DNA of 64,000 nucleotides, from contig CANXME010000218.1 of assembly GCA_948144175.1 (NCBI GenBank), forward strand, positions 1 through 64,000. The letters run 5' to 3'. The notes beneath the pieces were generated by a model. It did not search any database and had not been told where the DNA came from. It saw only the letters and a program-made list of their open reading frames with translations. The position numbers and the translations under genes were made by a program. Below are positions 11,801 to 63,854 of the stretch, in pieces (position 1 is the stretch's first letter; every line of letters begins with the position of its first letter). Origin of the DNA: Closterium sp. NIES-65. Its lineage: Eukaryota; Streptophyta; Zygnematophyceae; Desmidiales; Closteriaceae.

Positions 11801-11894
11801 CGCTGATATATTCACCAAGGCACTTCAGTCTGGTGATCATCAGCGCTTCTGTACTTTGTTGGGGCTGGTACCCACTTTGCCTCACTTGTTGTAG
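8844..11894 (+). CDS. Copia-1 reverse transcriptase/RNase H
   Basis: A 1016-codon open block. The first third is a low-complexity linker with GGAEPG-like and DPGVGAAAG-like repeats (about 8990-9540). RT begins near 10370 (MDAEMASWMSTGTYVDEVPP), with DFSTAFLQGSLHEE and the catalytic YVDDLVFAT near 10915. RNase H has LDASWVDDQATQRSSQGYTF near 11425, SSCEAEIYATAMAAQELRW and YVDNKAAIALC. The listed start is a non-ATG codon: the block is the C-terminal part of a polyprotein and not a free protein. It copies element RNA to DNA. Confidence 0.85.
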   Translation: MLPPPPLFLAPGAVVVDPLPPQGAAPSGVSQVDPVEPVKVAVDSRPARGAEPEHAEPGVAETEGAESGGAEPGSTEPACAESGGAEPGSATAGRALSSQQLREWYLQYCSLRRGASGARSAAGAGARASSPRRELPSPQRLREWYARRCSLRSGAPSVEDPATGAADPGVGVAAAAADPGVGAAAGAADPGVGVATSATDPGVGAAAGVVDPGVGAAAGAADLGVGAAQAAGSGGAGVLLELLEVLVLSLLLQGAPRGRDRTSFHSFSRFLVSHLSLVPPPSVECPPPVQSQSQLPPASPLPHPSPYTGPTGGLTERHDPESRPVSLVSRPESPVRTTSTSRRTPRERPPPVPGTHRMSLRPSTAPQRVSLPSPPESSFPALVDPESDSLRAASPTVTRLLATADTDPSFESAAASALVAELLDFAARCRLDYAASLVAESKCVCPPSVGGECALSTDVLEDRQEDLECLAAAAPHLVSMLVAPEGDPDAPDIPTPRSYAEVIEGPYSSHWQSAMDAEMASWMSTGTYVDEVPPPGANIVSGMWIFRVKQPPGSPPVFKARYVARGFSQREGVDFFQTFSPTPKMTTLRVLLHVATQRDYELHSLDFSTAFLQGSLHEEIWLRRPPGFTGSFPPGTQWSLRRLVYGLRQAPREWHDTLRTTLAALGYSPSTADPSLFLRTDTSLPPFYILVYVDDLVFATADTESLAHMKSELQKRHTCNDLGELRSYLGLQITRDRARCTITLTQSHMVQQVLQRFGFTWSSAQATPLAIGHSLSALPSDECVESSGPYPELVGCLMYLMTCTRPDLAYPLGLLARYVAPGRHRKVHWDAAKRVLRYLCSSSGMGLVLGGGSSVVLTGHLDASWVDDQATQRSSQGYTFSLGCGSVLWCSTRSSSVLSSSCEAEIYATAMAAQELRWLTYLLTDLGERPSSPRVLYVDNKAAIALCEEHILEHRTKHIALRYFLAREVQQRGQLRLRYVASQANTADIFTKALQSGDHQRFCTLLGLVPTLPHLL

Positions 11895-17030: not shown

Positions 17031-17858
17031 TTACGGGCCACTCGACTCTACGGACTCATCCGAAGGCAGAGCTGAGAGCGAGTGGCGAGTAGACAGAGGA
17101 GTGGCCTGAGGCGAGGAGTACGTGAAGCCGAAGCGCTGAAGGACCTGCTGCACCATGTGTGACTGAGTCAGGGTAATGGTGCGGCGTGCTCCGTCTCGGG
17201 TGATCTGCAAGCCAAGGTAGCTGCGCAGCTCACCCAGGTCAGTGCACGTGTTTCTCTTCTGCAGCTCGAACTTCACGTGGGCGAGTCCAGCAGTGTCAGC
17301 TGTGGCAAAGACCAAGTCGTCGATGTACACGACGATGTAGAACGGCGGCAAAGAAGTGTCGGTACGCAGAAATAGTGACGGGTCGGCAGTAGAGGGAGCA
17401 AACCCAAGAGCCGCAAGTGTAGTCCTCAGTGTGTTGTGCCACTCACGCGGTGCCTGGCCGAGACCGTAGACTGGCCGCCGGAGGCTCCACTGGGTACCAA
17501 GAGGGAACGACCCAGTGAAGCCAGGTGGGCGGCGCAGCCAGATCTCCTCGTGCAGACTGCCCTGCAGGAAAGCTGTGCTGAAGTCAAGAGAGTGAAGCTC
17601 GTAGTCGCGGTGAGTAGCTATGTGCAGCAGCACCACAAGAGTGGTCATCTTTGGGGTGGGAGAGAAGGTCTGAAAGTAGTCAACTCCCTGCCGCTGACTG
17701 AAGCCACGAGCCACGTACCGCGCCTTGAAGACAGGCAGAGAACCCGGCGGCCGCTTCACCCTGAAAATCCACATGCCACTGACGATGTTCGCCCCTGGCG
17801 GGGGAACCTCGTCAACGTAGGTGCCTGTAGACTTCCAGGAAGCCATCTCTGTGTCCAT
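17031..17858 (-). pseudogene. Copia-2 reverse transcriptase
   Basis: 275 codons of RT: WIFRVKRPPGSLPVFKARYV, DFSTAFLQGSLHEE and the catalytic YIDDLVFATAD. The frame starts just after a stop near 17860 and ends at a stop near 17031, so it is separated from both the linker upstream and RNase H downstream, although the core motifs are intact. Confidence 0.8.
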
Positions 17859-17960
17859 ATTTGCCTGCCACTGAGAGGAGTAGGGACCCTCTATCGCCTC
17901 CGCGTAAGAGCGCGGAGTCGGGATGTCAAGTGCATCCGGGTCTCCCTCGGGGGTAAGCAG

Positions 17961-19505
17961 TTAGGACACGAGATGAGGTGAAGAAGCAGCCAAACACTGG
18001 AACTCCTCTTGCCTGTCCTCAAGGACGTCCGTGCCAAGGGCACACTCACCCCCGACGGACGGAGGACAGACAGACTCAGACTCAGCGACAGGACTAGCAG
18101 CGTAGTCTAGACGACAGCGAGCAGCAAAGTCGACGAGCTCAGCAACTAGGGCCGACGCAGCAGTGGACTCAAAGGAAGGGTCAGTGAGGACAGTAGCAAG
18201 GAGACGCGTGACAGAAGGACTGGCAGCACGAAGAGAGTCCGACTCCGGGTCAGCAAGAGCAGGAAGAGAGGACTCAGGAGGAGAAGGCAAAGGGGCACGC
18301 AGAGGAGCAGTGGACGGACGTAGAGACATCCGGTGCGTGCCAAGGACAGGAGGAGGACGCTGACGCGAACCACGACCACAAGTGGGAGCAGGAGGGACAG
18401 GCGATGCAGGGCGAGACGCAGGCTCACGACGCTCAGTAAGACCTCCAGTAGGGCCACTGTAGGGAGAAGGAGCAGGGAGTGGGGAGGCTGGCTGTAACTG
18501 TAACTGTGACAGGACAGGCTGCGGACACTCTGCGGGAGGAGGAGGACCAGTAGAAGGCTGGAGACCAAGAACCTGCTGAAGGAGCGGAACGAAGTACGGC
18601 CGAGGCCGCGCGGCGACTCCAGACACAGCAGGGACAGCACCAGTACCCCCAGCCGCAGCACCAGCGCCAGCAGCACCCCCAGCTCCAGTACCTCCAGCAG
18701 AACCAGTAGCACCCCCAGCAGGACCGCCTCCAGGACCGACAGTAATAGCCTCAGTGCCAACACCCTCAGCAGTTCCAGCTCCTGTCGTACCCGCAGGCCC
18801 AGCAGCTCCAGTACTCCCAGTACAAGCACCTCCGGGACCCGCGGCACCAGCACCCTCAGCAACCGAAGAACCTCCAGCTCCAGCAGCACGCCTCCAGCGC
18901 CGGGCAAACCACTCGCGCAGCTCCTGTGGAGAGAGTGGCTCCCGCCAAGACGAAGCACCCTGAGAACCTCCAGGCCCAGCACCGCCAGACGCCACACGAG
19001 CAGGCCCAGCTCCCTCAGGCTCCGCACCCCCAGGCTCAGCACCTCCAGGCGTAGCACCCCCAGGCTCAGCACCCCCAGGCGTAGCACCCCCAGGCTCAGC
19101 ACCCCCAGGATCAGCACCCTCAGTGGTAGCACCCCCAGGCTCAGCAACCCCAGTAGTAGCACCCTCAGGCTCAGCACCCCCAGGCGTAGCACCCACACGC
19201 TCAGCACCCCCAGAGTCAGCACCCCCAGGCTCAGCACCCTCAGCAGCACCAGAGTCACCAGTAACCTCGACAGGCTCGACTGCGTCTACCTGGGACACAC
19301 CTGAAGGGGCAGGACCCTCAGGGGGGAGGGGGTCTACCGGGGGGGGACCTGGCACAAGGAAGAGCGGTGGCGGGGGGAGGGACGGAGTGCCGTAAGGGAA
19401 GAGACGGTAGTAGGGGACCGACTCGTCAAACGTGACGTTCTGGGAGGACAGAACACGGCGAGAGGTGGGGTGGTAGAACTCCCACCCTGGCGCGTCAAGA
19501 CGCAA
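17961..19505 (-). pseudogene. Copia-2 integrase-RT linker
   Basis: 514 codons. The first 30 (FYHPTSRRVLSSQNVTFDE) finish the integrase C-terminal region. A long run of GGAEPGGATPGGAEP-type repeats follows (about 18960-19260). The tail (LVAELVDFAARCRLDYAASP) leads to RT. A stop near 17961 cuts it off. This is a spacer, with no enzyme motif. Confidence 0.7.
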
Positions 19506-33500: not shown

Positions 33501-36500
33501 CAACCCATGGCGTGCAGGCAGTTGTGTAGCTGTGCATCCCACCTCTTGGCAATGATTGCCTTGATGGTGGTAAAAAAGGTGCTTCTATCCTTCGTGGCTA
33601 GCAGTTCCGTCCGTCTGATGAAGTGGGAGGTTGCTCACGGTGGAAATTGAGCAGATAATGTACAGTACACAACAGAATAAAAAACAGAATGCACAAAACC
33701 AGAATGTCCAAAACAGAAAACAAACTGAACAAAACAGAAAGTACAGGGTTGACAGCAAATCAGAAAACATCCAGCCCACCCACTTACCAGCCGCCTCAGC
33801 CGCTTCGGTTGTCTTGACCGTGGCCTCAAGCATGAGGCCATAGATTTGGCCCATGACTTGAGCCCGTGTGTCAACGGCTCGAAGAAAACGTAGATCGGAG
33901 TCATGAGGCGGAGCACCGCCGTCCCACAGTCCCAAAAAACATCGTCCAAGAGGAGCTTCCTAACCTCCATCCCCTCCTCTGTCTGTGCCACCGCCACCTC
34001 CTCCCATTCTTGACTGATTACCACCGCCCTCAACGCCCTCTTCACCTCCAGGAACTTGCCCAGCATGATGACCTGGGTGCCGAATCTCGTTGCACCCGGC
34101 CGCACCAAGGAGGGCTTGCTAAAAAGCTCATGGAACAAGATGACGGCAGAGGCGCTGCCTTTGACCATCATCACCACGCGGTGCACTTGGCCAAGCACAC
34201 GTTTAACAGCAGGGATGTTGCCGAGGTCGTGCAACATGACATCTAGGCAGTGGGCGGCGCAGTTGGTGAAGACGCCATGGGGATACGCCGAGCAAAGGTT
34301 GTTGGCGGCGATTTTGTTGTTAGAGGCGTTGTCCATCACGACTTGGATGACATGCGTAGGCCCCACCTCCTTCATCGCGCCCTCAACAAGACCCGCCAAG
34401 TAGACCCCGGTTTTTTTGGCGGTCTTCGAGTCAACGATGTCGACGATGACGGGAGCAGTGTCATTTTGGGCGATGACACGACACACACCATCCCGCGGGA
34501 TTTGATGCATGTCCACCCATCCACGGAGAGCATGCACCCGGTTGTCTTCCACCTCTCCTTGAGCTTGTCGAGCAGCGGGCCGGATACCTTGTAGGGGGTA
34601 GGGAGGGTGTACGCCTTCCCGTACACGACCGCCGCGTCAGCGAAGGCTTGGATTGACTTTGACTTGCTGGCGTTGAAGGCGAGGTCGTTCTCAGCAACTA
34701 CAGCAGCCCGCAGGTAATGTCACCGAATATGCACGGTTGTGCATATAAGGTGCCAGAATCATGGTGGTGTAGTGGAGGTGTAGCTATGTTGTGTTTGCAA
34801 ATTCGAGGATAGGTAGGTGGGAGCTGGGAAATTGACGCGAAGTTGGTAGGAGAGCACCTTGGGTGAAAACCTTGCAACCAATGAGAACGAACCAGCCCAG
34901 GCTCGAGCCGCACATTGAGAAATGCACGGTTCGAGCCAGGGTCAGGTAAGTTCACTCTCACACACACCTCTGATGCTTTCTGGTTGTTATCCTTTCGTAT
35001 AGTGGACTATTGTCACCTTACCAGAGCAGGCAGGTGGCACACCACTCAGGGAGGACCTTAGAGGTGAGAGTTCTGTCACTTTCATAACAACCAGAAAGGT
35101 GCGCGTACAAGCATGGATGTGTACGAGATGCGTTACGGCAGGAATTATGGTCGCCATGAGGCGGATCGCTCGCGGCGCGCACGCTCACGTGAGCGCGGGC
35201 GCTCGCTGGAGAGGTCGCCGCGGCGGCCTGAGCGATCGCCGCGGAGGCCGGCCTTTCGCGCGGATCAGGTTTCTCTCGCGCCAGATCGCCAGGAGGGAGG
35301 TTCCGCCTGAGAAGGAAGAGGCGGATCTGGATCCGTCACGACGGGGAGTGACCCGTGGCGGACGGACGGGCGTCACGGAGCGGATGGCGGTTGTGGGTAC
35401 CGCCAGGACACGGGAGCATACCGCTCGCCGGAGGAAGGCTATCGCCGTCGCGAAGAGAGAAGTCGCGGGCGAGGTCTGGAGGGGCTCTTCTCGGGTCGCC
35501 AAGGCGATCTTGATGTGGATGGAGAAGACGAGGCCGACTCGGCGAATCGAGTGCGGGAGACGAATCGTGAAGGCGAGACCAAGGGCGATGACGAACCCCA
35601 GGAGGAAGGCGCAGGCGAGCAGCGCGAGATGCCCGCTGGAGTTGATGACGACGATCCCGCGCAGGCGGGCGTGGCGGCGGAGCCGAGCACGGCGGAGGCG
35701 GAAGAAAAGGGCGGTACTACCCGAGACCTGCCGCGCGACGGAGAGAAAGGTGACGGCGGGGGGCGTGGCAGTGGCGCGCGCTCTCCAGATCCCCGTCAGC
35801 AGCGTGACGAGGGACGTGGTGACGGCGCGCGTTCGCCTGATCCGCGCCTGAATCGGGACGGAGGACGCGGCGGCGGTGCGCGCTTGCCAGAGGCTCGGCT
35901 GAATCGTGATGGGGGACGCGACGGAGGCACGCGCTCGCCACATCCACGGATGTATCGGGAAGGGGGGCGTGGCGGTGGCGCGCGCTCTCCAGATCCGCGT
36001 CAGCAGGGTGACGAGGGACGTGGCGACGGCGCGCGTTCGCCTGATCCGCGCCTGAATCGGGACGGAGGACGCGGCGGCGGTGCGCGCTTGCCAGAGCCTC
36101 GGCTGAATCGTGATGGGGGACGCGACGTAGGCACGCGCTCGCCAGATCCACGGATGTATCGGGAAGGGGGGCGTGGCGGCGGCGCGCGCTCTTCATATCC
36201 GCGTCAGCAGCGTGACGAGGGACGTGGCGACGGCGCGCGTTCGCCTGATACGCGCCTGAATCGGGACGGAGGACGCGGCGGCTGTGCGCGCTCGCCAGAG
36301 CCTCGGCTGAATCGTGATGGGGGACGCGACGGAGGCACGCGCTTGCCAGATCCACGGATGTATTGGGAAGGGGGGCGTGGCGGCGGTACGCGCTCGCCTG
36401 ATCGGCGGCAGAATCGTGACGGGGAACGCAGTGGCGGCGCGCGCTCGCCAGACCTGCGTCTCCCGCACGAGGATGGGAGGCACGGAAGCGGCTACCGCTC

Positions 36501-39500
36501 GCCAGGACGGCAGCAGCTGCAGGAAGAAAGGCGCAGAGGCGGCTACCGCTCGCCAGAGCTACGGCGACACCAGGACAGTGGACGCGGGGGAAGCGTGCGC
36601 TCACCAGATCCGCGGAGGTATCACAACTGGAGAAGCGGGGGGGAGCTGCGCTCTCCAGGTCCTCGTTACCCTCGTGATGAGAGACGCGGAGGCGACTACC
36701 GCTCGCCTGATCTGCAACGGTATCATGGAGAGAGGTGGGGAAGCGAGACGCGCTCGCCCGACTGGCACAGGCAACATGAAGAAAGCCGGGGAGGCGGATA
36801 CAGCTCGCAGCTTCGGCAACAGAGCAGGGATGAGGGGCGCGGCGGAGGGTATCACTCACCCGATCGGTACTGGCAGCATGACGGAAGACGTACCAGTGAG
36901 GGAGGACGGGATCAACGCAGCAGCAGAGAGGAAGGCAGCGGGCTGATGCACAGCCTAGAACGGGCTAGAGAGGCGAGGGAAGGGATACTGCGGGCGAGAG
37001 AGAGAGGAGCGTCAGGGAGATCAGCAGGAGGGCCGAGCGAGGCGTGGGGAGAAGGCAAGGGAAGCACGGTGATGGCCACGAGAGTGGAAGTGCCAGCACG
37101 CTTCTCAGGAGATCAGCGCACGGGCCCCACGCTGAAGAACTACCTGATGCAGGTGGGCAACGTGCGGTACAGATGCGAAAGGAGCGGCATGGACTCGGTG
37201 GACTTTTTCCTTAGTCTGCCAAACACATTGGAAGGGGAGGCGGAGACATTGTACAGGATGAAGATGGATGAGCTACTGGAAAGGGCAGGAAGGTACGGGG
37301 AAGACCCTACTGAAGCATTCCTGAGGCGGCTGAAACGGCAGTTTCCATGTCACACCGCAGAGAAGGTCAGGGAATTCCAAGATTTCAGGAAGGGGCGGGG
37401 CGAGTCACTACTCACCTACTATAACCGGCTGGTCAACCTGGCAGAGGATGTGACTTGCGCAGACATGGCCCTGCTTGTGAGTAAATTCCTGGATGGGCTG
37501 GAGGGCACTTTGGGAAGCGGACTGCGGATGAAGGTGTATGAGATGGGGGCCGACACAATGCTTGAAGAGGTGTTTGAACTGGCAGAGAAGATGGAGCTGG
37601 CGCAGAGGAAATATGAAGCATACAGGCCCAGACAGGCGGAGCGCGGCAGGGGGCCTACATGGGCTGCGGCCATGATACCAGAGGAGAAGGACAGGGCAGC
37701 GGGAAGAGGGGAGACCAGGCCTGACACACGAACATGCCACAGATGCGGGCAGCCAGGACACTTGCGCCGAGACTGCAAGAACTGTGACTCCTGTGGCAAG
37801 CCAGGGCATCGGCGGCGGGAATGTCCAACGGCACCGAAGTGTGAAGTCTGTGGGAAAGGAGGGCATGCAGCAAAGGAGTGTTATCAGCGAGAGGGGGCAG
37901 CGAAGAAGTCACCAGAAGATCTGGAGAAGCAAATCAGCAGGCTGCAGGCCCAGCTGCAGGCAATGGGACCACGACGGGAAGCTGAGGCGGGGATGTACGC
38001 CAAGGAAGAGGAGGAAGAAGATGTGGAGCAGGATGAGGAAGCCGCGTTCATGGTCTGGGCGGGAAGAGGAGAGAATGAGATGGAGCATGAGGAGCAACCA
38101 GCATACATGGCATGGCGAGGAAGAGAGGAAATGGGGTTGCGCAGCGGAGGAAAGGATGCACGGAAGGAGCAGCGGAGAAAGGAGCGGGAGAGAGGACAGA
38201 AGCCGGAGGAGAAGGAGGAGAGATGCACAGCAGCACGGCACCCCCAGAAGAGATTGGCTTGTTAGACTTCCGTGCTGCTGATCCAAGGTGGTGCGCTGTC
38301 AGTGGAAGGGGAGAAGGCTAAGACGGCTATTATAGACACTGGAGCGCAGAGCGTGATACTCGGAAAGGGGATGGCCGAGAAGCTGGGACTGTGGGCACCT
38401 GACAGGCATGTGGTGAAGGGGATGCTAGTGATGACAGCAGAGGGGGGAGAGTCGAAGTGGATGCCTTGTACGAGGACTCCAATAGAACTGACGGTGCTGA
38501 AGGGGGAGAAGCATGAGACGCCGGTTAGAATCAGGTGCGGGATCTCAGAGTCAGAAGATTTTGACGTCCTGGTGGGCACAGAGACGATCTTTGCATTGGG
38601 CATGACCATTTGCTTCTGGAAGGAGACAGTGGAGTTTAGAACCAGGTGGTGGAGGAAGGGTGAGCCACTGGGGCAGCTGCCGGTGCAGTTTGTCAGGACC
38701 GAGCCAAAAAGGGCCTACAGGGCAGATCTGAAGGAGGTGACAGCGAAGCAGGGGGCACAGAAGGCCGCAACAGGCAAGGGACAAGGTGGGGAGCCCAGGA
38801 TGCGTTTCATGGACGAACCTAGCCAGCAGACCGATTGGCAGCAACCCATTCGGCATGTGGAGCTGTTCGGAGGAATCGGGGCGGGACTGGCAGCAGTGGT
38901 GCGAAATGGAATTGCAGTGAAGCAGTGGATTTACGTGGAGAAAGCACCAGAAGTGAGGAAAATAGTGGAGCATCAGGCGTGGGAGTTGCACAGAGAGTTC
39001 CCGGAGCTGCTGCAGGGAGAGGTGATCAAGGCAGCAATGAGCAGAGGAATGAACGATGTAAGGGCCATTACGGAAGCTGAGGTAGCAAGCTGGGGGCACG
39101 TGGACCTGTTGGTGGCAGGGTGGGAATGCCAAGGGGTATCATGGGCAGGGAAGGGCAAGGGTGAGCAAGACCTACGAACACAGCTGATGGAGGATCTGTT
39201 CAGAGTCATGGAGTGGATGCAGGCGAGGTAAGGCAGAGTGGCTTACCTGCTGGAGCACTTGGATATGGAGGGAGACGTGAGAGAACCGATAAGACTAGTG
39301 AGGGAGAGAGTGACCAGACAGGTGGGGAAAGGAGTGAGCAGTGATGCGGCGCGGATGGGAGCATATGCGCACAGGCTCAGGATGTACTGGCAGAATGTGG
39401 TACCAGTAGAAGACCTGCAGAAGGAAATAGAAGGGGTGCAGAGAGCTGGGGGACGGAAGCTGAGCGACATATTGGAGCCAGGAAGAACGCCAGCACCAGT

Positions 39501-42500
39501 GACCAAGAAGGGCTACATCAGGCATTATCCCTGCAACCAAGTGGGACAGGAAAGGCAGGCACTGCCTAACCTGGTGTCATATGAGGGGGCAGCAGGCTAT
39601 CAGATGGATGGGAAGCAGCCAGGCCCAGGATTGGTGCATGACCACAGGAAGGGACAGTGGGAAGAGCCCACGGCCTTGGAGAGGGAGCTGGCCATGGGGT
39701 ACAAGGAGAACGCGACAGCAGCCTCAGGCGTGAGCGAGAAGGAACGGAGACGGGCATTCGGGAATGCCATGGATGGGTACATGATGAGGTGGTTGGTGCA
39801 GCGGATGTGGAAGGAGACAGTGCTGCACTGGGGACTGAAGGAGGGAGAAAACACAGTGGCAACGGTGAGGCACGGGGTGTGGGCCTGCCTGCAGAAACAG
39901 GAGCCAGAGTGGAAGATAGGTGAGAGCATGAGCGAAGAAGGGAAGGCAGCGATGCGGGCACTGCTGGCAAGGCATCGGAAGGGCTTCGCCTTCACACTGC
40001 TGGAGTTGGGGAGGTGCAAGATCAAAGAGATGGCGCTGAAATTGAGTAGTGACGAGCCGGTGTTCCACCGCAGGAGGAAGATGCCACCAGGGGATGAAGT
40101 GATCTGCAGGGAGAAGATAAAGGAGTTACTGGAAGCCGGACTGATGAGGAGGTCAGAGTCAGAATACGCTACCCCAACCGTGGTGGCAGCCAGGAAGGAC
40201 TTGACAGGCGAGGTGTTGAGTAGGAGGATGTGCGGGGACTACAGGGATCTCAACAAAATTACAGTGCCAGATAGATACCCAATGCCGATAGCGGAAGAGC
40301 TCTTTGACAAGCTGGCTGACGGGGTGTTCTTCACGACGCTGGACCTGCGACAGGGGTTCAATCAAATCAAGATCAGAGAGGAGGATGTGAAGAAAACGGC
40401 TTTCCACGGACCGGATGGGCTGTACGAGTGGCTTTACATGCCCTTTCGGTCTGAGGAACGCCTCGGCGGTGTTTCAGAGAGTCATGGATGCGGTGCTGCG
40501 GGGAATAGAACACACGGCGTGCTATATTGATGATGTCGTGATTTTCAGCTTGACCGAACAGCAGCACCTGGAGGACGTGGAGAGGACCTTGACCGCCATA
40601 GAAGGGGCAGGGCTCACCTGCCATCCCAACAAGTGCAGGTGGGGGGAGCGGACAGTGCAGTATCTTGGGTATGAGGTCACAGGGGGGCAGATTGGTATCC
40701 AGCAAGCGAAGGTGCAAGTGCTGGACAGGCTGAGGGAACCAAGAGACAAGTCAGGGCTGCGTGCGGTCTTGGGCTTCCTCAGCTACTACAGGCGCTTCGT
40801 GCCGAACTTCAGCAAACGAGCGACAGTACTAAATGGGATGCTGCGGGAGGACAAGGCATGGGAGTGGGGAGAGGAGCAGAGACAGGCACTGCAAGACCTC
40901 ATGACAGCCGTGAAGACAGCGACAGTGCTGCGGCTGCCAGCAGCGGACCAGGCCTTCATCCTCTACACAGACTGGAGCAGCCAAGGGATGGGGGCAATAT
41001 TATGCCAGGAGGTGGAGGGAGTGGAGAAGGTGGTGGCCTACGCCAGCAGGAGCTGCAACCCGGCGGAAGCACAATATAGCTCATACATTGGGGAAGGGCT
41101 GGCGGCAGTGTGGGCGGTCGGGCATTTCCGGATATACCTGCAGGGCCGAGAATTCACCTTAGTCACCGACCATCAGCCACTCACCTGGCTGATGACTACA
41201 CCAGGGCTAACAGGCAGGAACGCGCGGTGGGCGGTGAAGCTGCAGGAGTATGATTTCAAGATCAGGCACAGGCCGGGGAAGACGCTGCAGCACGTTGACG
41301 GCCTCTCCCGCAATCCACCGCCGTTGGAAATGAAACAGGCCACCCTGGGGACGGAAGAGACAGAGCAAGAGCCGGCACGGACCTTGATCTTACTGGCAAG
41401 AGAGGTGGAGCAGACGGGGGCGAAGGGGAGTAAGGGGCCAACCGACATCTGGTTGGATGCAAAGGCAATGCAATGGGTGAAGGGAGAAACCGAGGAGGAT
41501 GAAACGGTGCCTGAGAGAGTAAGGGCACGAGGGCACCACTACAGGTGGTATCAGCAGCAGCTGCAGATTAAGACGGAGGATGGGTGGAAGCTGGTGCCAG
41601 TGCCCGAGGACCGTGAAGCAGTGATCAAGGAAGTGCACACCAAGCTGGGGCACTTCGGGCATGAGAGGACCGTGCACCTGCTGAAGACGGGCTGGTGGTG
41701 GGAAGGGATGCGCAGGCAAGTAAAAGAGTGGGTGGAGGGGTGCGAGGCGTGTCAGAGGAGCAAAGAAAACCTGACGCAGGCCAAAGCAGAGCTGCACTCA
41801 CTGCCAATCTGCGGACTAGGGTTCCGTTGGTCCCTGGACCTCGCGGGAGAGCTGCCACTGAGTCGAAGCGGGAATCAGTACATCGTGTTCATGGTGGAGC
41901 ATGTGAGCAAGTGGCTGGAGGTGCGAGCGATCCCTAGCAAGAGCGCGAGGCACATTGCAGCAGCCTTCAAAGCGCAAGTAGTGTGCCGATTTGGAGCATG
42001 CGGGGAGGTACTCACAGACCAGGGAACAGAGTTCCAGGGGGAGTTCAAGAAGCTGCTGGCGGAGACTGGCATCATGCACCGAAAGACCTCCCGCTATCAC
42101 CCGCAGAGCGATGGGCCGACTGAGAGAGCCGTGCAAACCTTCAAGCGGGGGCTGCGGGCCTACGGGGAGCAGAGGAAGAGGGATTGGGATGAGGAGTTGG
42201 ACTGGATCGCGGCTGGGTACAGGTTCGGGAAGCAGGCAGCGTTGAAGGATCACTCCCCGTATAGCCTGCTGTTCGGACGAGAGCCGATTCTGCCAGTGGG
42301 AGCACCACGAGTATTGACAGATACAGTGACAGCGGGCACGATCAGGAACTGGGTAGCCCTGTCCGAGGTGAGGGCGCGCTACATGCGCTACATGATGCCA
42401 GCCGCGTTGGAGAATCTGCACACCGCGCAGCTCAGGGACGCAAGAAGATACGAACAGAGGCAACACAAAGGGGAGGGAAGAATGGCAAAGGATGTCTGCG

Positions 42501-45500
42501 AAGGACAGGAAGTCTATCTGAAGAGGGCTAAGTAGGACACCCTTCACGTGGGGTTGGGGACCATCCGCTCGAAAGTCAAGGAGGTACGCCCCTCAGGGGT
42601 GCTGGTCTTGGAAAACGACACCGGAGCGCAGCTGAGAGAACATCAGACGAACACTACAGTGATCAGAGGGACCGGGCCTCAGCGTACTGGTCCTGTGACC
42701 CGCGCTCAAGCCGCTCGAGCACGGGCACAGGAGGGGGCAGAGAGTGGCTGAGGCAACCGAAGGAGCTAAGGGACGAAGAGCATGAGGACTAAGGCAGATG
42801 ATGAGGGTAGAGCTGTATCTCCGACAGCTGTCACCGAATATGCACGGTTGTGCATATAAGGTGCCAGAATCATGGTGGTGTAGTGGAGGTGTAGCTATGT
42901 TGTGTTTGCAAATTCGAGGATAGGTAGGTGGGAGCTGGGAAATTGACGCGAAGTTGGTAGGAGAGCACCTTGGGTGAAAACCTTGCAACCAATGAGAACG
43001 AACCAACCCAGGCTCGAGCCGCACATTGAGAAATGCACGGTTCGAGCCAGGGTCAGGTAAGTTCACTCTCACACACACCTCTAATGCTTTCTGGTTGTTA
43101 TCCTTTCGTATAGTGGACTATTGTCACCTTACCAGAGCAGGCAGGTGGCACACCACTCAGGGAGGACCTTAGAGGTGAGAGTTCTGTCACTTTCATATGA
43201 GAGTGGCTGAGGCAACCGAAGGAGCTAAGGGACGAAGAGCATGAGGACTAAGGCAGATGATGAGGGTAGAGCTGTATCTCCGACAGTAATCTAGCCGATT
43301 CTGCGCATTTGTATCCGTCATGTCACGGATATCTCTCTGCCGAGAGCGACGTGCGGGCGGAGGAGGGTCAACCATGGACGTGGAGGCATGGTTTGATCCT
43401 CCCGAACCGTTTCCCATGGATGAGAGCTCCTGATCGGCTGTCGCCCACAGCTGCTCAGCGTACTCCGATTTGCACATCGCGACGTTCCGATCCTTCTTGT
43501 TAGCAGTGGCGACAATGTGCTCTTTTATCCTAGTCGCATTAGCCGCGGGAAGCTTGCAATTAATGCATGTAGCACCAACGACCTTATCCTCTGCATTCTT
43601 AATCTTAATCACATGCTCCCAATATTCTGAGGCCGATCACACCATGGCGTCGATCAAGACTGAGCTAAGCTGAAGTGGGGCAGATCGGTGTTTTGAGGTG
43701 TTGAGTGGTGTTGAATGTGAGAAGATGAATGTGTTGAGTGACGTTTTTCACTACCAATAAGTACCTCTTAGAGCTTGTTGGTGCTGCTTTGTCGAGTGGT
43801 GTTGAGGGTATGGTTGAGATGAGAGGGAAGTTGATTGGGTGCTTGCTATTGGCTGGAAATGCATCGCATGCAATTGTTTCCAGCCAAACGACTGCATGCG
43901 AAAACACATTGCAAAGCGCGAATCGTGTTGACGAATACGCGAAACGGGTAAGAAAGTTGGCCAGTTCGCCAAATGTGTAAATCGCCGCGCCTCGTCGAAT
44001 TGGTGTCGACGCGATTCGGCGAACGACATCAACGACTCTGCGAGACGGGAACGCATTTCTTTCCCGTTCGTCAAATGTCAAAATGTCGCGCCTCGACATT
44101 TTCCTGACATACGCGACTCGACCCAAATTCGGTCGGGACTGACAAGACTTCGCACGAGATCCCCCATATTGAACTCGACGGGTCTGAATGTTGAAAATCA
44201 ATATACACTGTCCCAGTTTTTAAATTTCGGCCGATAGAACGGCCGTATTTATATTTGAAACTTAAATTTAACTAATGACCGTACTAAACCGTTTTAAACG
44301 AACGTGTAATACGATACCGTGTAATTCGGTGGAAAAAACAAAATTTCGGTCGTATTTTTTATCCTTGGTGGGATGGGAAGTATGGGAGCAAGGAAGGAGG
44401 TGTGCCACACTAGACGAGTGAGTCTCATTTGTAGATGAAATTCAAAAGGTATTAAAACTATCGTTCCCGGTTTGAGTAAGCTTTTCAAGTGAGGTGCGTC
44501 CATGAGGACAAGTGAGTTTCACTATCCAAACTGGAAAAAGGAGAAAGAGGGTGATTGCAGCTAGAAGTGACTCAGATGGTGCATATGGAGGGATGATAAC
44601 GAGGGAGATCTAGAGAGGAGATAAAAATGAAAGGCAGGTTGGGTTACCTTGGCGAACAGGTGGGTTACCTTGGCGAACAGGTGGGTTACCTTGGCGAACA
44701 GGTGGGTTTCCTTGGCGAACAGGTGGGTTACCGTGGCACCTTAACAAGCATTGATAGCGCCCACCTACCCGTGCAAAGGTGGATTCAGAAGCACCGGATC
44801 GATGGAGGTCAAAGGAGAGCGCAGCAAGAAATATTTTTTCAACGGCTGACAGGCGACGAACGATCTGACAGGGGCGAGGAGGACGAGAAAAGGAAGCATG
44901 CATTCGGGCGTTGAAAACAGCAGGGAATGAGGAGTTGATGAGTTGTTAATTCGTTGCAGTAAGGCACCGGAGCTCATAAAACACTTAAACGGGGAGCTTC
45001 CTTCCTTTTGCTGCTTCCGAAGTTCTTTCTATATACATGTTCTACTTTAACGTGAAAAGCTGAGTACAGGAGAGATGTAGTGTGATAGCATGGAGGAAAA
45101 GTAAAGGTTGTAAGATTAGAATGGACATGGACACGCATGCATGCACGCACACGGATGCAAGTGCACGTGCCCGCACGCACGCACACACAAAAACGCACAG
45201 TGAACACACGCACCCATGCACACAGCACACACTCACATGCACACACAAACACGCGCACACGCACGCGCGCGCACGCACACACGCACGCACGCACACAGAC
45301 ACACAGACACACACACACACACGCACGCACGCACACACACAGACGCACGCACGCACACACACAGACGCACGCACACACACACACACATCACACACACACA
45401 CACACATCACACACACACACACGCACGCACGCACACGTGCACACGCACGCACCATGATGTGGGGCGATGAGAAGATCTCTCGAATGGCCGCCTCCACGTG

Positions 45501-48500
45501 CTCTATCTGTACCACCAACGGGTTTTGCCGCACTTTCCTAGCTTGCACCTCAACTGCCGATGGCTCCACCTCCTCCTTTCTCCCCTCCGCCCCTTCAGCC
45601 CGTCCCCTCAGTCCCTCTTCTATTTCCCTCGTCATCTCACCCTTCACTCCTCTCGCACTCTCTTCTGCCCCTCGCACCCCTTTTCTGAGGGGCCTCAAAT
45701 GGCGTGAGGGGGTGGCTGTACGTGTGTGACCACCGTTCACACCCCCAACACCACTAGCACCTCCAACGACCTCCTTCCCTCCCTCCCCACCTGCTTCATG
45801 TGTCTTACCTCTCCTTTCATTCCTGCTCGAACCCCCTCTTCCAACCTTCCTATTCCCCACCCCATTCTCCTCTTTCCCTTTGACTCCGCCTGCTGCATCC
45901 CTCTCCCCTCCCGCCACATCCCCGCTCCCCGCCCTCTGAAACAGAACAGACAAACCGCTCTCCACTCTTCCTCCTTCACAGCCCACCGCACTCTCCCTAA
46001 CCAGGCTTGCCGCGGGCGCCAGACTCAGACCTGCTCTCGTCCTCGCCACCAACTCTGTTCCCGAACCAGCTCCCGCCGCTGCCCCCACCTGTGACCCTTT
46101 TCCGCTTGCTATCATACCATCTGTGCCCATCCCTGCAGCAGCAGGCACTGCTTCAGCACTCCCACCAGCGCCACCTATCACCCCCCTCCGCCCTGCTGTC
46201 GCCCTTTTACCAGTCATGGCCTCACCGGCTTGACCACCTGGACCCCTCTGACCTGCCACGTCCGATTGACCTGCAGCGTCAGGTTGACCTGCCACGTCAG
46301 GTTGACCTGCCACGTCAGGCTGACCTACCACGACAGCACAACCCGTCTCAGCTGCATGGCCAGTCCCTGCCAGCCTGGCTTCTGCCTCGGCGATCTCCAC
46401 GGCCCTGCGGCAGATCTCCAGCGCCCGCCGCACGTCCCCTGATACCGACGCCACCTGCAGACAGGGCGGGAGGGAGGGAGGGGTGAGGTAAAGGTAAAGG
46501 TAAAGTAGGGGGATGAACCCCTCTGGTGTTACCCAGGCTGTCAGACGTAACCCGCCTACCCATTTGTTTACACACCTCGCTGGGTAACGAGGTTGTTCTA
46601 TCCACTCCCAGATGAGCACCTGTGTAACCCCTTTTAGCGGGGACTGGCAGAATACGCTGCAGAGGGAATTTTGATCCCAGGACCTCATCTTTCATCGCAG
46701 AGGGGACCTCATCTTTCATCGCAGAGGGGACCTCATCTTTCATCGCAGAGGGGACCTCATCTTTCATCGCAGAGGGGACCTCATCTTTTATCGCAGAGGG
46801 GACCTCATCTTTCATCGCAGAGGGGACCTCATCTTTCATCGCAGAGGGGACCTCATCTTTCATCGCAGAGGGGACCTCATCTTTCACCGCAGAGGGGACC
46901 TCATCTTTCATCGCAGAGGGGACCTCATCTTTCATCGCAGAGGGGACCTCATCTTTCATCGCACTGGGGACCTCATCTTTCATCGCAGAGGGGACCTCAT
47001 CTTTCATCGCAGAGGGGACCTCATCTTTCATCGCAGAGGGGACCTCATCTTTCATCGCCGAGGGGACCTCATCTTTCATCGCAGAGGGGACCTCATCTTT
47101 CATCGCAGAGGGGACCTCATCTTTCATCGCAGAGGGGACCTCATCTTTCATCGCAGAGGGGACCTCATCTTTCATCGCAGAGGGGACCTCATCTTTCATC
47201 GCAGAGGGGACCTCATCTTTCATCGCAGAGGGGACCTCATCTTTCATCGCAGAGGGGACCTCATCTTTCATCGCAGAGGGGACCTCATCTTTCATCGCAG
47301 AGGGGACCTCATCTTTCATCGCAGAGGGGACCTCATCTTTCATCGCAGAGGGGACCTCATCTTTCATCGCAGAGGGGACCTCATCTTTCATCGCAGAGGG
47401 GACCTCATCTTTCATCGCAGAGGGGACCTCATCTTTCATCGCAGAGGGGACCTCATCTTTCATCGCAGAGGGGACCTCATCTTTCATCGCAGAGGGGACC
47501 TCATCTTTCATCGCAGAGGGGACCTCATCTTTCATCGCAGAGGGGACCTCATCTTTCATCGCAGAGGGGACCTCATCTTTCATCGCAGAGGGGACCTCAT
47601 CTTTCATCGCAGAGGGGACCTCATCTTTCATCGCAGAGGGGACCTCATCTTTCATCGCAGAGGGGACCTCATCTTTCATCGCAGAGGGGACCTCATCTTT
47701 CATCGCAGAGGGGACCTCATCTTTCATCGCAGAGGGGACCTCATCTTTCATCGCAGAGGGGACCTCATCTTTCATCGCAGAGGGGACCTCATCTTTCATC
47801 GCAGAGGGGACCTCATCTTTCATCGCAGAGGGGACCTCATCTTTCATCGCAGAGGGGACCTCATCTTTCATCGCAGAGGGGACCTCATCTTTCATCGCAG
47901 AGGGGACCTCATCTTTCATCGCAGAGGGGACCTCATCTTTCATCGCAGAGGGGACCTCATCTTTCATCGCAGAGGGGACCTCATCTTTCATCGCAGAGGG
48001 GACCTCATCTTTCATCGCAGAGGGGACCTCATCTTTCATCGCAGAGGGGACCTCATCTTTCACAAGTGAACCAGCTAACTAGCTGGGCCACTTCAGGATG
48101 GGAAGGGGTGAGGAGAGCCGGTTGAAGGGGAGTAAAGAGAGGCAGGTTCGCGCAGAAGAGGTTCGTGCAGGTTGAGGTGAGGACTGGTGCAGTGAGAATA
48201 AGAGAGACGTTGAGGCGTGTGGACGCCTTGAGTCCCACGGGCCCATCGAACCTCGCCAGATCCAACTGCCCTGCATGCAGACAGCACATGGCAGGTGGCA
48301 GGTGGCAGGTCGGGTGAAAGGGAGATTGGAGCGCAAGTGAGGTAAGACACAGCGAGACACCAACTCCTCGCAACCGGTTGCTTGCAAGAGGAGGCTCTCA
48401 CTCTTCACAACATCCTTGCACCACTCAAAGGGGACGCTCACCCTTGCAAGCTCGCATGCTGGCGAGGGGGCAAGCTCGCACCATAGAAATCCACGAGCCT

Positions 48501-51500: not shown

Positions 51501-54500
51501 GGGTGGGGGAGAGAAGGGGGTGGGGGAGAGAAGGGGGTGGGGGAGAGAAGGGGGTGGGGGAGAGAAGGGGGTGGGGGAGAGAAGGGGGGGGGGAGAGAAG
51601 GGGGTGGGGGAGAGAAGGGGGGGGGGAGAGAAGGGGGTGGGGGGGAAGGGGACTTAAGGCGCGTGTGATGTGAATTCAGGTTCGAACAACAGTTTGACCT
51701 CTTTATGCTTCGTGAATTCAGATTCGTGAATTTTGCTAGTCAACAACTCTGCACTTGTGTGATTCTGAATTCTGGACGGGACTCGAATTTGAGCATGAAC
51801 GTGTGCACGTCCAAGCGAACAGGTGCACGTCCAAGCGAACAGGTGCACGTCCAAGCGAACAGGTGCGCGTCCAAGCGAACAGGTGCACGTCCAAGCGAAC
51901 AGGTGCACGTCCAAGCGAACAGGTGCACGTCCAAGCGAACAGGTGCACGTCCAAGCGAACAGGTGCGCGTCCAAGCGAACAGGTGCACGTCCAAGCGAAC
52001 AGGTGCACGTCCAAGCGAACAGGTGCACGTCCAAGCGAACAGGTGTACGTTCAAGCGAACAGGTGCACGTCCAAGCGAACAGGTGCGCGTCCAAGCGAAC
52101 AGGTGCACGTCCAAGCGAACAGGTGCACGTCCAAGCGAACAGGTGTACGTTCAAGCGAACAGGTGCACGTCCAAGCGAACAGGTGCGCGTCCAAGCGAAC
52201 AGGTGCACGTCCAAGCGAACAGGTGCACGTCCAAGCGAACAGGTGCACGTCCAAGCGAACAGGTGCACGTCCAAGCGAACAGGTGCACGTCCAAGCGAAC
52301 AGGTGCACGTCCAAGCGAACAGGTGCACGTCCAAGCGAACAGGTGCACGTCCAAGCGAACAGGTGCACGTCCAAGCGAACAGGTGCACGTCCAAGCGAAC
52401 AGGTGCACGTCCAAGCGAACAGGTGCACGTCCAAGCGAACAGGTGCACGTCCAAGCAAACAGGTGCACGTCCAAGCGAACAGGTGCACGTCCAAGCGAAC
52501 AGGTGCACGTCCAAGCAAACAGGTGCACGTCTAAGCGAACAGGTGCACGTCCAAGCGAACAGGTGTACGTCCAAGCGAACAGGTGTACTTAACAAGTACA
52601 GCCCTTACACGGGATAACCTACCAGGCCTAGTCGCGGCTCGTCAAACATCGAATCTCGATAGTCGACCCTCTATGTAGTGTTGTGATGTGCTGGAAATTG
52701 GCACCCGCGACTCGAACCTCTATGTAGTACTGTGAATGAGTTAGTCAAGTGCACGTTTGAACCAAAAAGGGGTGAAAACCGACTAAAAAGACAAACTTTG
52801 GGATGTGCGCCGAATCACACACGCCCTTACAGAGAAGAAGGCAGTGGGGGCGGGCAGGCGCAGGGCGTTGATGTGGACGAACTGGAAAGGCGGCAGCCGC
52901 CCGACCCTGCTGCTCCTCCTCGCCTGCCTCATCACCTCCACCACCACTGCTGTCTTGCCCGTGCCCGGTACTCCACTGATGTACAAACACCGTGAGTTCA
53001 CCTGCTGCTTTCCTGCCCCCTCCTCCTGCTGTTCCCCGTCCTCGCGACCCTCCTGCAGCCCCTTCTGCTGCCCTTCCTGCGGCTTCTCTCCCTCTGCCTC
53101 TTGCTCATCCCTCACCTCCTCCTGTTTTCTCCGCCTTCCACTCGCTCTCCCTCTCCCTCTCCCCCTCCCCCTCTCCTTCCCTCGCTCGCCTCCCTTCCCT
53201 CCCACACCCATGCCCTCCTTGTTCCCCTTCTCTTGCTCTGTGCCCGCTACTCCGCCTCCTGCCCTTTTCCCGCCATCTTCCCCGAAAGCGCCTCCCCCAA
53301 GATTAATTTCCCCAGATCCACCTCCCCCAGATCCACCTCCCCCAGATCCGCCCCCAACCACTCTCGCCACAAACCCCTCCACCTCCTGCTGCTCCTTCTC
53401 GCGGCACGGCAGGCACGGCGGCACACGGGACAGCTGCAGCGCCCTCTTCGCCCTCCGCACCGCCGCCAACCCGCCTACCGTCCTCCCCCTCTGCTCACCA
53501 TCCTTCCTCACATAGCTCTCTGACTCATCCCTCTCCCCATCCTCCTCCTCGCCCTCCTCATCCCCCTCCCCGTCGCTTTCCCCATCCCCCTCATCCCACG
53601 TATCATCTCTCTCATCCTCTCTCTCTCCCACCAGCATCGCAGAATGCCCTCCGGCGCTCCTCCGATCACTATGGAACACGGAAAAGAGCCCATGGTCCCC
53701 GTCCCCTTGTGAAAATTTAAAGCCATTTTCCTGGCCCAGCCGTTGCCGCTTCTTCTGCTTGGAAGCCTGCGAGTGTATTGAGAAGCCATCACACCCACCC
53801 AGGTCCACGCAACGCAAACAGGATTCAATGTTAGTTGGCTCAAGATAACAGCGAAAGAGAACAGCAAACCTAAAGTTCCTCAGGCAAGCACAGCACTAGG
53901 ACTTCTCTCCTAGTGATCCATGGGCTCCTTTCTGTGTTCCATGGTGATCAGAGGTGCATGGACCACGAGCTCATGTTCCTCCTTAGTAAAAACACAAGAC
54001 ACAAGAGAATTAGGAAGGATTTGCGAGTGACTGTAGGTAGGTGAGGTGAATACCGGATGAGTGTGTAGGTTGGAGGCAGCTTGCTGCTGCACTTTCCATG
54101 GCTAAATACAAAAGCTGAGTAATAGAGTCAAACGTCGACTCAAGTTGAACTGCTTTTGAGAGTTCTCAAAAGCGGAGTGCGTGGATTCGACTGGACGCCT
54201 TTGAGCCGACTCAAAAGTCATCTCGGCGTGTACGGGATAAACTCACCTCTAATACCCGTCTCAAAGCTCTAAACCGTGACTCCAACAGTTTGAGACACCA
54301 ACAAATAGATATTCCTTTCTCCCACGACACACACCTTATGTCTGCTGCCCTTCCTCGTTCTCTTTCTCAACCTCCTCCCTCCCTCCACTCCCCAATCCTC
54401 CTCTTCCTCCTCGTCCTCCTCTTCCTCCTCTTCATCCTCCTCGGTCTCTAGGCTAAGATTATCGCTGTCATCGTCACTAGAATCAGTCAGCCCTATACTA

Positions 54501-60896: not shown

Positions 60897-63854
60897 TCAA
60901 GAGGAGAGCAAGTGAGGCAAGACAGGCACAAGACCCAACTGCGTGCAGCAACGCTGATGATCACAAGGCGCAAGTGCCTTGGTGAAGACATCAGCAGTGT
61001 TGGCCTCAGAGGCCACGTACGCAAGTCGCAGCTGTCCACGCTGCTGTAGCTCACGAGCAAGAAAGTAGCGAAGAGCAATGTGCTTCGTTCTGTGCTCCAG
61101 TCGCTGCTCTCGACACAAGGCCAGCATGGCCTTGTTGTCTACGTACAGGACTGGAGGAGAACGAGGCTGCTCTCCAAGGTCGGTCAGCAGGTAGGTGAGC
61201 CAGCGTAACTCCTGTGCAGCCATAGCCCCAGCGTAGATCTCAGCCTCACAACTGGAGCCGAGAACAGAAGACGAGCGGGTAGCCCGCCACGAGACAGAGC
61301 CGGAACCAAGGCTGAAGGTGTAACCCTGTGACGACCGCTGCGTAGCCTGGTCGTCAGCCCAAGAAGCGTCTGCGTGCCCAGTGAGGACCACTGGACTGCG
61401 CCCTCCAAGCACTAGCCCCATGCCCGACGTACTGCACAAGTAGCGCAACACCCTCTTCGCTGCAGCCATGTGCTCTGGTCGGTGTCTCCCAGGAGCAACA
61501 AAGCGTGCGAGAATGCTAAGAGGGTATGCGAGGTCAGGTCGTGTGCAGGTCATCAGGTACATGAGGCAGCCAACAAGCTCTGCAAACGGGCCACTCGACT
61601 CTACGGACTCATCCGAAGGCAGAGCTGAGAGCGAGTGGCGAGTAGGCAGAGGAGTGGCCTGAGGCGAGGAGTACGTGAAGCCGAAGCGCTGAAGGACCTG
61701 CTGCACCATGTGTGACTGAGTCAGGGTAATGGTGCGGCGTGCTCTGTCCCGGGTGATCTGCAAGCCAAGGTAGCTGCGCAGTTCACCCAGGTCAGTGCAC
61801 GTGTGTCTCTTCTGCAGCTCGGACTTCACGTAGGCGAGTCCAGCAGTGTCAGCTGTGGCAAAGACCAAGTCGTCGACGTACACGAGGATGTAGAACGGCG
61901 GCAGAGAGGTGTCGGTACGCAGAAACAGCGACGGGTCGGCAGTGGAAGGAGCAAACCCAAGTGCCGCGAGCGTAGTCCTCAGTGTGTCGTGCCACTCACG
62001 TGGCGCCCGGCGGAGACCGTAGACTGGACGCCGGAGACTCCACTGGGTACCAGGAGGGAAAGACCCAGTGAAGCCAGGTGGGCGACGCAGCCAGATCTCC
62101 TCGTGCAGGCTGCCCTGCAAGAAAGCTGTGCTGAAGTCGAGAGAGTGCAGCTCGTAGTCACGGTGAGCAGCAACGTGTAGCAGAACCCGAAGAGTGGTCA
62201 TCTTCGGGGTGGGGGAGAAGGTCTGAAAGTAGTCAACCCCCTGCCGCTGACTGAAGCCACGAGCCACGTAACGCGCCTTGAAGACAGGCGGAGAACCCGG
62301 CGGCCGCTTCACCCTGAAAATCCACATGCCACTGACGATGTTTGCCCCAGGAGGGGGAACAGCGTCAACATAGGTGCCTGTGGACTTCCAGGAAGCCATC
62401 TCTGCATCCATAGCTGCCTGCCACTGAGAGGAGTAGGGACCCTCTATCGCCTCCGCGTAAGAGCGCGGAGTCGGGATGTCTGGTGCATCCGGGTCTCCCT
62501 CAGGGGCTAGCAGTACAGACGCGAGACGAGGTGAAGCGGCGGCCAGACACTGGAACTCCTCCTGCCTGTCCTCAAGGACGTCCGTGCCAAGGGCACACTC
62601 ACCCCCGACGGACGGAGGACAGGCGGTCTCAGACTCAGTGACAAGACGAGCAGCGTAGTCTAGACGACAGCGCGCAGCAAAGTCGACAAGCTCAGTGACA
62701 AGGGCAGACGCAGCAGACGACTCGAAGGAGGGGTCAGTGACAGCAGTAGCCAGGAGACGCGTGACAGTAGGACTGGCAGCACGAAGAGCGTCCGACTCCG
62801 GGTCGGCAAGAGCAGGAAGAGAGGAAGCAGGAGGAGAAGGCAAAGGGGCACGCAGAGGAGCACTGGACGGACGCAGTGACATCCGGTGCGTGCCAGGGAC
62901 AGGAGGAGGACGCTGACGCGACCCGCGACCACTAGCGCGCTCAGTACGAACAGGCGACACAGGACGAGACGCAGGCTCACGACGCTCAGTAAGACCTCCA
63001 GTCGGACCAGCGTAGGGAGAAGGAGCAGGCAAAGGGGAGGCAGGCTGTAGCTGTGGCTGTGACCGGACAGGCTGCGGACCCTCTAAGGGAGGAGGAGGAG
63101 GTGGAAGACCAAGAACCTGCTGCAGGAGCGGAACGAAGTACGGTCGGGGCCGCGCGGCGACGCTAGAAACAGCAGGAACAGCACCAGCAGCCCCGGCAGG
63201 AGCACCCACTCCAGCAGCACCTCCAGCAGCACCACCAGAAGCTCCAGAACCTCCAGCCGCAGCACCAGGAGCACTGTCAGTCGGGCCGCCAACGGCAGGC
63301 TCAGCGCCAACACCCTCAGCAGGACCAGCTCCAGGAGAACTCTCAGACTCAGCAGCTCCAGCACCCACAGTACGAGCACCGGCGGGGCGCGCAGCAGCAG
63401 TGCCCTCTGCAGCCGAAGAACCACCAGCACCAGCAGCACGCCTCCAGCGCCCGGCAAACCACTCACGCAGCTCCTGTGGGGAGAGTGGCTCCCGGCGAGA
63501 CGAAGCACCCCCAGGCACAGCACCCCCGGGCTCAGCACCCCTAGACACAGCACCTCCAGGCACGGCACCCCCAGGCACAGCACCCCCAGGCTCAGCACCC
63601 CCAGGCTCAGCACCCCCAGACTCGGCACCTCCAGGCTCAGCACCCCCAGACTCCGCACCCCCAGGCTCAGCTCCCGCAGCAGCACCAGAGTCACCAGTGA
63701 CCTCGACAGGCTCGACCGCGTCTACCTGGGACACACCTGAAGGGGCAGGACCCTGAGGGGGGAGGGGGACTACCGGGGGGGGACCTGGTACCAAGAAGAG
63801 CGGGGGTGGGGGGAGGGACGGAGTGCGGTAGGGGAAGAGGCGGTAGTAGGGCAC
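60897..63854 (-). CDS. Copia-3 linker, reverse transcriptase, RNase H
   Basis: 985 codons without a stop. The linker carries GGAEPGGAESGGAEP repeats (63490-63690). RT: MDAEMASWKSTGTYVDAVPP, ARYVARGFSQRQGVDYFQTF, DFSTAFLQGSLHEE, the catalytic YVDDLVFATAD. RNase H: LTGHADASWADDQATQRSSQ, SSCEAEIYAGAMAAQELRW, YVDNKAMLALCREQRLEHRT, KHIALRYFLARELQQ. The first codon is GTG in the middle of the integrase-linker region, and coding continues upstream in another frame (near 63850), so this is the C-terminal part of Pol. It is the most intact Copia enzyme here. Confidence 0.9.
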   Translation of the reverse strand: MPYYRLFPYRTPSLPPPPLFLVPGPPPVVPLPPQGPAPSGVSQVDAVEPVEVTGDSGAAAGAEPGGAESGGAEPGGAESGGAEPGGAEPGGAVPGGAVPGGAVSRGAEPGGAVPGGASSRREPLSPQELREWFAGRWRRAAGAGGSSAAEGTAAARPAGARTVGAGAAESESSPGAGPAEGVGAEPAVGGPTDSAPGAAAGGSGASGGAAGGAAGVGAPAGAAGAVPAVSSVAARPRPYFVPLLQQVLGLPPPPPPLEGPQPVRSQPQLQPASPLPAPSPYAGPTGGLTERREPASRPVSPVRTERASGRGSRQRPPPVPGTHRMSLRPSSAPLRAPLPSPPASSLPALADPESDALRAASPTVTRLLATAVTDPSFESSAASALVTELVDFAARCRLDYAARLVTESETACPPSVGGECALGTDVLEDRQEEFQCLAAASPRLASVLLAPEGDPDAPDIPTPRSYAEAIEGPYSSQWQAAMDAEMASWKSTGTYVDAVPPPGANIVSGMWIFRVKRPPGSPPVFKARYVARGFSQRQGVDYFQTFSPTPKMTTLRVLLHVAAHRDYELHSLDFSTAFLQGSLHEEIWLRRPPGFTGSFPPGTQWSLRRPVYGLRRAPREWHDTLRTTLAALGFAPSTADPSLFLRTDTSLPPFYILVYVDDLVFATADTAGLAYVKSELQKRHTCTDLGELRSYLGLQITRDRARRTITLTQSHMVQQVLQRFGFTYSSPQATPLPTRHSLSALPSDESVESSGPFAELVGCLMYLMTCTRPDLAYPLSILARFVAPGRHRPEHMAAAKRVLRYLCSTSGMGLVLGGRSPVVLTGHADASWADDQATQRSSQGYTFSLGSGSVSWRATRSSSVLGSSCEAEIYAGAMAAQELRWLTYLLTDLGEQPRSPPVLYVDNKAMLALCREQRLEHRTKHIALRYFLARELQQRGQLRLAYVASEANTADVFTKALAPCDHQRCCTQLGLVPVLPHLLSS

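Follow-up and report, generated by a model that had tools for sequence, protein, structure and literature searches.

The window, a 64,000-nucleotide stretch of Closterium sp. NIES-65 DNA (CANXME010000218.1), contains a young yet decayed Ty3/gypsy long terminal repeat (LTR) retrotransposon whose Pol carries a cytosine-C5 methyltransferase (MTase) domain between the protease and the reverse transcriptase (RT). By profile and predicted fold, and in line with a tree that compares it with DNMT3A and bacterial or viral enzymes, this domain is of the Dnmt3 class, and across the other copies in the same genome it is under constraint similar to that on RT. We give a probability of roughly 0.55 to the reading that active copies package the MTase and methylate their own cDNA or a fresh insertion, with an enzyme that would descend from a eukaryotic Dnmt3-like gene.

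C5-methyltransferase motifs I, IV, VI, VIII and X lie in this order and in the same frame between protease and RT. All features of the element are on the plus strand and all coordinates are those of the window:

38842-39810, +, Dnmt3-class cytosine-C5 methyltransferase domain with motifs I, IV, VI, VIII and X; outer limits from alignment
38860-38880, +, motif I, in frame
39118-39135, +, motif IV, GWECQG, in frame
39229-39231, +, in-frame stop TAA that interrupts the MTase domain after motif IV and before motif VI; inactivating
39247-39264, +, motif VI, LLEHLD, in frame, with EHL instead of ENV
39367-39390, +, motif VIII, AHRLRMYW, in frame
39757-39795, +, motif X, in frame

The piece before the stop reaches 22.8 bits against the Pfam family DNA_methylase (PF00145, cut-off 22 bits), which bears out the claim of a first-pass annotation of this DNA that a C5-methyltransferase sits inside a gypsy Pol and answers the check by profile search that it had proposed. 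The piece after the stop matched no Pfam family on its own; it aligns over its full length to intact copies and reaches 223.7 bits when compared with a family profile built without it. The window copy keeps the catalytic Cys as well as the Glu of motif VI, the two Arg of motif VIII and the Gly of motif X. The same annotation overlooked the TAA, a TAG (38263-38265) that separates gag from pol, and a change of frame in RT near 40.45 kb. With these, the window copy as read can produce neither the enzyme nor a full Pol.

When one domain was compared with PDB, DNMT3A came first (E 8.5e-11) and DNMT3B next, with HhaI and the plant-type DNA methyltransferase 4onj near 1e-4, and a profile of 15 sequences gave 97.8 bits to DNMT3A, 52-59 to DRM and 41.7 to HhaI. 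Profile and fold match both place DNMT3 ahead of DRM, DNMT1, DNMT2 and bacterial enzymes, and the predicted fold of the Closterium relative P0001 (a model of that protein, not of the window copy) agrees with the DNMT3 class. A phylogeny, which the first-pass annotation had called for, was run with MTases of retrotransposons, DNMT3A and bacterial or viral enzymes as its rows; it sets the retrotransposon MTases together with DNMT3A, the latter on a long branch, apart from seven bacterial or viral enzymes at 100/98.

The genome holds at least 123 PF00145 matches, all above the cut-off, from the 123 of 901 candidates that were scored; counts drawn from them are lower bounds, and part of the 123 were read. 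A stop codon interrupts 14 of these matches; 44 belong to open frames 1000 codons or more in length, and 14 to frames of 1900 or more. We fetched 20 elements from the 123, locating them by a pattern that accepts any residue between GW and CQG, and every one carries both the domain and the GWECQG motif; in two, the domain is part of one uninterrupted Gag-Pol frame (2134 and 2150 codons). LTR pairs were found in 10 of the 20 (96.6-100% identity over the 174-614 nt compared); in another two the match extends over just 141 and 84 nt (97.2% and 96.4%), one has a tandem repeat only, and seven have no LTR pair inside the stretch fetched. Some matches are evenly spaced, at 460522, 467586 and 474650 on C995 (7064 bp twice) and at 36104 and 43192 on C382 (7088 bp), a pattern suggestive of elements in tandem array.

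The catalytic Cys and the motif VI Glu are present in all 21 own-genome rows, and the two Arg of motif VIII in 20 and 21 of them. Ka/Ks was estimated for 20 of the 120 copy pairs among 16 elements (Ks 0.03-2.0; the pairs are not independent and carry no significance test) and ranges from 0.057 to 0.262 in the MTase and from 0.047 to 0.296 in RT; in the 11 closest pairs the MTase stays at 0.07-0.18, with 10 of the 11 at or below 0.11.

In an active copy, the MTase would be made as part of Gag-Pol and enter the particle together with RT. Its target would be cytosines in the double-stranded cDNA just synthesized, or in the new insertion, and a new copy would thus arrive in the genome already marked; as the domain is kept, this should help the lineage to persist. 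That the enzyme is active and useful is supported by its class, its position in Pol, its conserved residues and the constraint on it; its substrate and benefit are inferred. Self-methylation of cDNA, as put forward in the first-pass annotation, is possible for the family, but not for the window copy as it stands, with its MTase stop and RT frameshift.

Several observations weigh against this reading. Constraint is evidence that the domain is of use but does not reveal its function, and in the own-genome copies read the catalytic Cys is preceded by Glu where Pro is usual. The ratio of observed to expected CpG is 0.79 in the element, 0.79 and 0.66 in its flanks, 0.68 and 0.59 in two copia frames of the window and 0.65-0.84 in the frames of the 20 other copies; since the element is not lower than flanks or copia frames, there is no trace of extra CpG methylation followed by deamination, and CpG depletion as a mark of self-methylation was not seen. 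Moreover, the published Klebsormidium homologue produced no DNA methylation in yeast, a result that its authors call inconclusive (PMC5890265).

The enzyme might instead act on the host side after integration, methylating the insertion site, sibling copies or nearby chromatin and thereby restraining the element or hiding it in heterochromatin, which we regard as possible if doubtful. PHD fingers are chromatin readers in general, and one follows the integrase in the metagenome relatives P0087 and P0096, in Chromochloris P0166, in Marchantia P0147 and in L049, a contaminant of a metagenome-assembled genome (MAG). Self-restraint is also among the options raised in de Mendoza 2018 (PMC5890265). 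No PHD finger, however, was found in the two intact desmid-type frames scanned (L027 and L028), and the domain adjoins RT in Pol, where packaging would follow.

We consider it unlikely that the domain is kept for some purpose besides methylating DNA, be it nucleic acid binding or the methylation of RNA or of a DNA:RNA hybrid. Such a role would fit the residue before the catalytic Cys, which is Glu in 21 of 21 own-genome rows, with the canonical Pro-Cys in none, and which in 134 database relatives is Pro in 86, Glu in 44 and another residue in 4; the level CpG content and the silence of the Klebsormidium homologue in yeast (PMC5890265) point the same way. The conserved catalytic residues and the retained fold speak against it, and pure binding in particular is disfavoured because it would not require them.

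Methylation of the element's own DNA by a Dnmt3-like enzyme is our preferred reading, and an origin of that enzyme from a phage or bacterial methyltransferase is very improbable. The first-pass annotation had seen such an affinity in motif IV, which is indeed of the CQ type (ECQG), where DNMT3A has CN, and GWPCQG is the sequence in several bacterial or viral enzymes; three Mesorhizobium loci even match nearly the full domain, if weakly (23% identity, E 6e-6). Yet DNMT3A scores more than twice the bits of HhaI, with fold and tree in agreement, and of 37 bacterial and viral loci fetched with a pattern allowing ECQ or PCQ, 34 open reading frames were read and all 34 have PCQ, not ECQ (L049, itself a retroelement in a MAG, among them). 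In the viral scan (19 loci) none matched more than 127 of 346 residues, and in the bacterial scan (18 loci) the sole strong match (42%, 2e-73) is L049. The suggested affinity is not supported by profile, fold or tree, and the closest relatives are not bacterial or viral. Two database entries, L049 (under a Synechococcales MAG title) and P0018 (an Obscuribacterales MAG), file MTase-gypsy sequence under bacteria; they are probably eukaryotic contamination, liable to be mistaken for bacterial methyltransferases.

The element itself is a single LTR retrotransposon insertion spanning 34718-43285, with the Ty3/gypsy hallmarks of LTRs, CCHC knuckles in Gag, a Pol in the order protease (PR), RT, RNase H (RH) and integrase (IN), and a target-site duplication:

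33635-34717, -, second part of a hAT-like transposase (hAT by inspection) split by the element
34714-34717, no strand, left copy of the target-site duplication GTAA, by flank comparison
34718-35084, +, 5' LTR, 367 bp, TG...CA, two mismatches to the 3' LTR
35515-38265, +, gag open reading frame with CCHC zinc knuckles, 51-bp repeats at about 35707-36563 and the closing TAG
38272-38620 (end approximate), +, aspartic protease, DTGA 38335-38349; Pfam score slightly under the cut-off
40225-40678, +, reverse transcriptase, broken by the frame change
40228-40254, +, in-frame motif position within the RT span
40946-41251, +, RNase H, by Pfam
41606-42103, +, integrase zinc-binding and core domains, by Pfam
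42829-43195, +, 3' LTR, 367 bp, by comparison of the LTR pair
43199-43286, +, 88-nt extra copy of 42740-42827 (the stretch preceding the 3' LTR), inside the insert and 3' of the 3' LTR
43286-43289, no strand, right copy of the target-site duplication GTAA, by flank comparison
43290-43612, -, first part of the hAT-like transposase (hAT by inspection)

The protease score, below the Pfam cut-off here, is above it in copy L028, and the 88-nt repeat perhaps reflects integration from circular or extended cDNA. Joining the flanks with one GTAA yields an unbroken hAT-like minus-strand frame of 230 codons, which, with GTAA on either side, identifies a genuine insertion, probably a young one, within a second transposon. 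That the domain is an assembly join or a one-off capture confined to the window copy, for which its broken frame might speak, has a chance close to nil and was ruled out by the target-site duplication, the restored hAT-like frame, the 20 of 20 fetched copies, which also settle the first-pass annotation's own check for such a join, and homologues in Closterium, Klebsormidium, Marchantia and Sphagnum.

The first-pass annotation had placed the element in an intron of ORC1. That gene is real and on the minus strand (E 7.9e-15), and an intronic position is possible, but the last exon found for ORC1 is 5' of the element, which sits within the hAT-like transposase frame:

44613-44945, -, last ORC1 exon found (winged-helix part), a weak match (best E 0.086; human ORC1 7ctf_A 767-812 of 861, E 0.19)

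A motif search of the minus strand of the window gave nothing convincing as a later ORC1 exon, and effects of the element on ORC1 are speculative. The ORC1 region also contains long minisatellite-like repeats (46348-48063 and 51654-52595) that are open in several frames, and copia-like Pol frames, recognized by inspection at 8844-11894, 17031-19505 and 60897-63854, make the window rich in retrotransposons.

The element is probably self-primed in reverse transcription, as suggested by an exact complementarity between two sites:

34976-34990, +, 15-nt LTR stretch, exact complement of a site at the 5' LTR end
35084-35098, +, likely primer-binding site, exact reverse complement of 34976-34990

An internal LTR stretch complementary to a site at the end of the 5' LTR is the signature of Tf1-type self-priming. 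Whereas the stretch in the window is 15 nt long, the longest in 200 shuffles of that site was 11 nt. Eight of the ten elements tested (the window copy, L010, L017, L018, L019, L021, L022 and L026), with six different sequences among them, have a 5' LTR stretch of 12-15 nt that is exactly complementary to one about 105-170 nt downstream; L013 and L014 have no complementarity of 11 nt or more, and none of 180 shuffled segments of nine elements reached 12 nt. The second stretch begins at the LTR end in the window copy, L010 and L021, the three with complete LTR pairs; in L017, L018, L019, L022 and L026 the LTR end falls outside the sequence compared.

The nearest named proteins to the MTase domain are from Closterium, and in the tree every one of the six sublineages sampled from this genome, among them that of the window copy, has a Closterium protein as its partner, the window copy being sister to a NIES-53 Closterium protein at 98/84 or 99/86. 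The pairing is consistent with a desmid host in or close to Closterium. Further out, the domain of L027 is 42% identical over 79% of the query to Klebsormidium nitens P0098 (KFL_009030040), whose order is MTase-RT-RH-IN and which the tree places on one side with the remaining rows whose MTase is ahead of RT. Marchantia accounts for 20 of 75 search rows (gene models of two assemblies), and there are relatives in the liverwort Calypogeia fissa, in Sphagnum troendelagicum, S. fallax and S. magellanicum (P0061) and in metagenome contigs. The MTase precedes RT in the Klebsormidium, Marchantia, Calypogeia, Sphagnum and metagenome relatives wherever both are seen. A second order, RT/RH-MTase-IN, mostly with a terminal PHD finger, occurs in P0087, P0092, P0096, P0152, P0157, P0163 and P0166; in the last of these, from Chromochloris (Chlorophyta), the MTase lies between RNase H and integrase, the PHD finger is C-terminal, DNA_methylase scores 20.6 bits, slightly under the Pfam cut-off, and there is a G-patch match too.

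In the tree, the 14 rows of the RT-RH-MTase-IN type, including four shorter models, make up a single clade (99/98). The split taken from the RT tree, with Klebsormidium beside this group, is not rejected by the MTase data (approximately unbiased (AU) test, p 0.124). Grouping only the 10 rows labelled RT-RH-MTase-IN is rejected (p 0.0002), a value that is not read against one clade, as the four shorter rows of the 14 were omitted from that test. There may have been one capture with a later shift, two captures or transfer between hosts. If the enzyme derived from a eukaryotic Dnmt3-like gene, its capture would predate the separation of the Closterium, Klebsormidium and bryophyte element lineages, unless there was host transfer or repeated capture. 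A bolder scenario, which we think rather unlikely, would have one ancient green-plant and algal lineage take up a single Dnmt3 before the streptophyte-chlorophyte split and later shift it within Pol (PR-MTase-RT in streptophytes, RT-RH-MTase-IN-PHD in the chlorophyte type), writing 5-methylcytosine on its own cDNA; the modified Glu-Cys active site of the desmid branch might then reflect a different substrate, for example a DNA:RNA hybrid.

Searches of open-licence PMC literature, which did not use the names Chromochloris and Sphagnum, gave no report that we recognized as placing such elements in Closterium, Marchantia, Sphagnum or Chromochloris. Nor did we find there, for MTase-gypsy elements, the Glu-Cys form, the self-priming signature or an occurrence across desmids, liverworts, peat mosses and a chlorophyte. 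Hosts normally use cytosine methylation as a weapon against transposons; the roles are reversed in an element that maintains, under constraint, a de novo-type methyltransferase of its own. Its occurrence in Marchantia puts this strategy in a tractable host, where the purpose of the enzyme is directly testable.

Among known systems, animal DNMT3A and DNMT3B are the closest solved sequences and folds, but identity in structural alignments is about 19-26%, motif IV is CQ here and CN there, and Pfam detects no ADD or PWWP in the window or in L027 and L028. Tf1-type self-primed LTR elements share the site at the 5' LTR end complementary to an internal LTR stretch; for the Closterium elements we claim a likeness in this complementarity and no membership.

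Retrotransposons that captured such enzymes have, as the first-pass annotation stated, been published by de Mendoza and colleagues, a Dnmt3-class MTase in a gypsy Pol among them (PMC5890265), and a 2025 paper repeats MTase-bearing retrotransposons for streptophytes and dinoflagellates. De Mendoza and colleagues also describe SymbioDIRS-Dnmt3, an independent capture with de novo CG methylation in yeast (PMC5890265), which also has a Dnmt3 domain in a retrotransposon Pol but, unlike the Closterium elements, is a DIRS element with a tyrosine recombinase. Their gypsy case is KnitGypsy-Dnmt3 of Klebsormidium nitens, an LTR element whose Pol contains a Dnmt3-class MTase that evolves under purifying selection; they describe its repeats as DIRS-like and place the acquisition in the K. 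nitens lineage (PMC5890265). P0098 is probably of this family. With KnitGypsy-Dnmt3, as described there, the Closterium elements share a Dnmt3 domain within gypsy Pol that is homologous to that of P0098 and stands in the same order; they differ in their desmid-like host lineage, in forming several distinct sublineages, in ECQ rather than PCQ in motif IV and in ordinary direct-repeat LTRs instead of DIRS-like repeats. The family is also wider here: against the acquisition in the Klebsormidium lineage proposed in 2018 (PMC5890265), homologues in desmids, liverworts, peat mosses and a chlorophyte point to a widespread and possibly old strategy.

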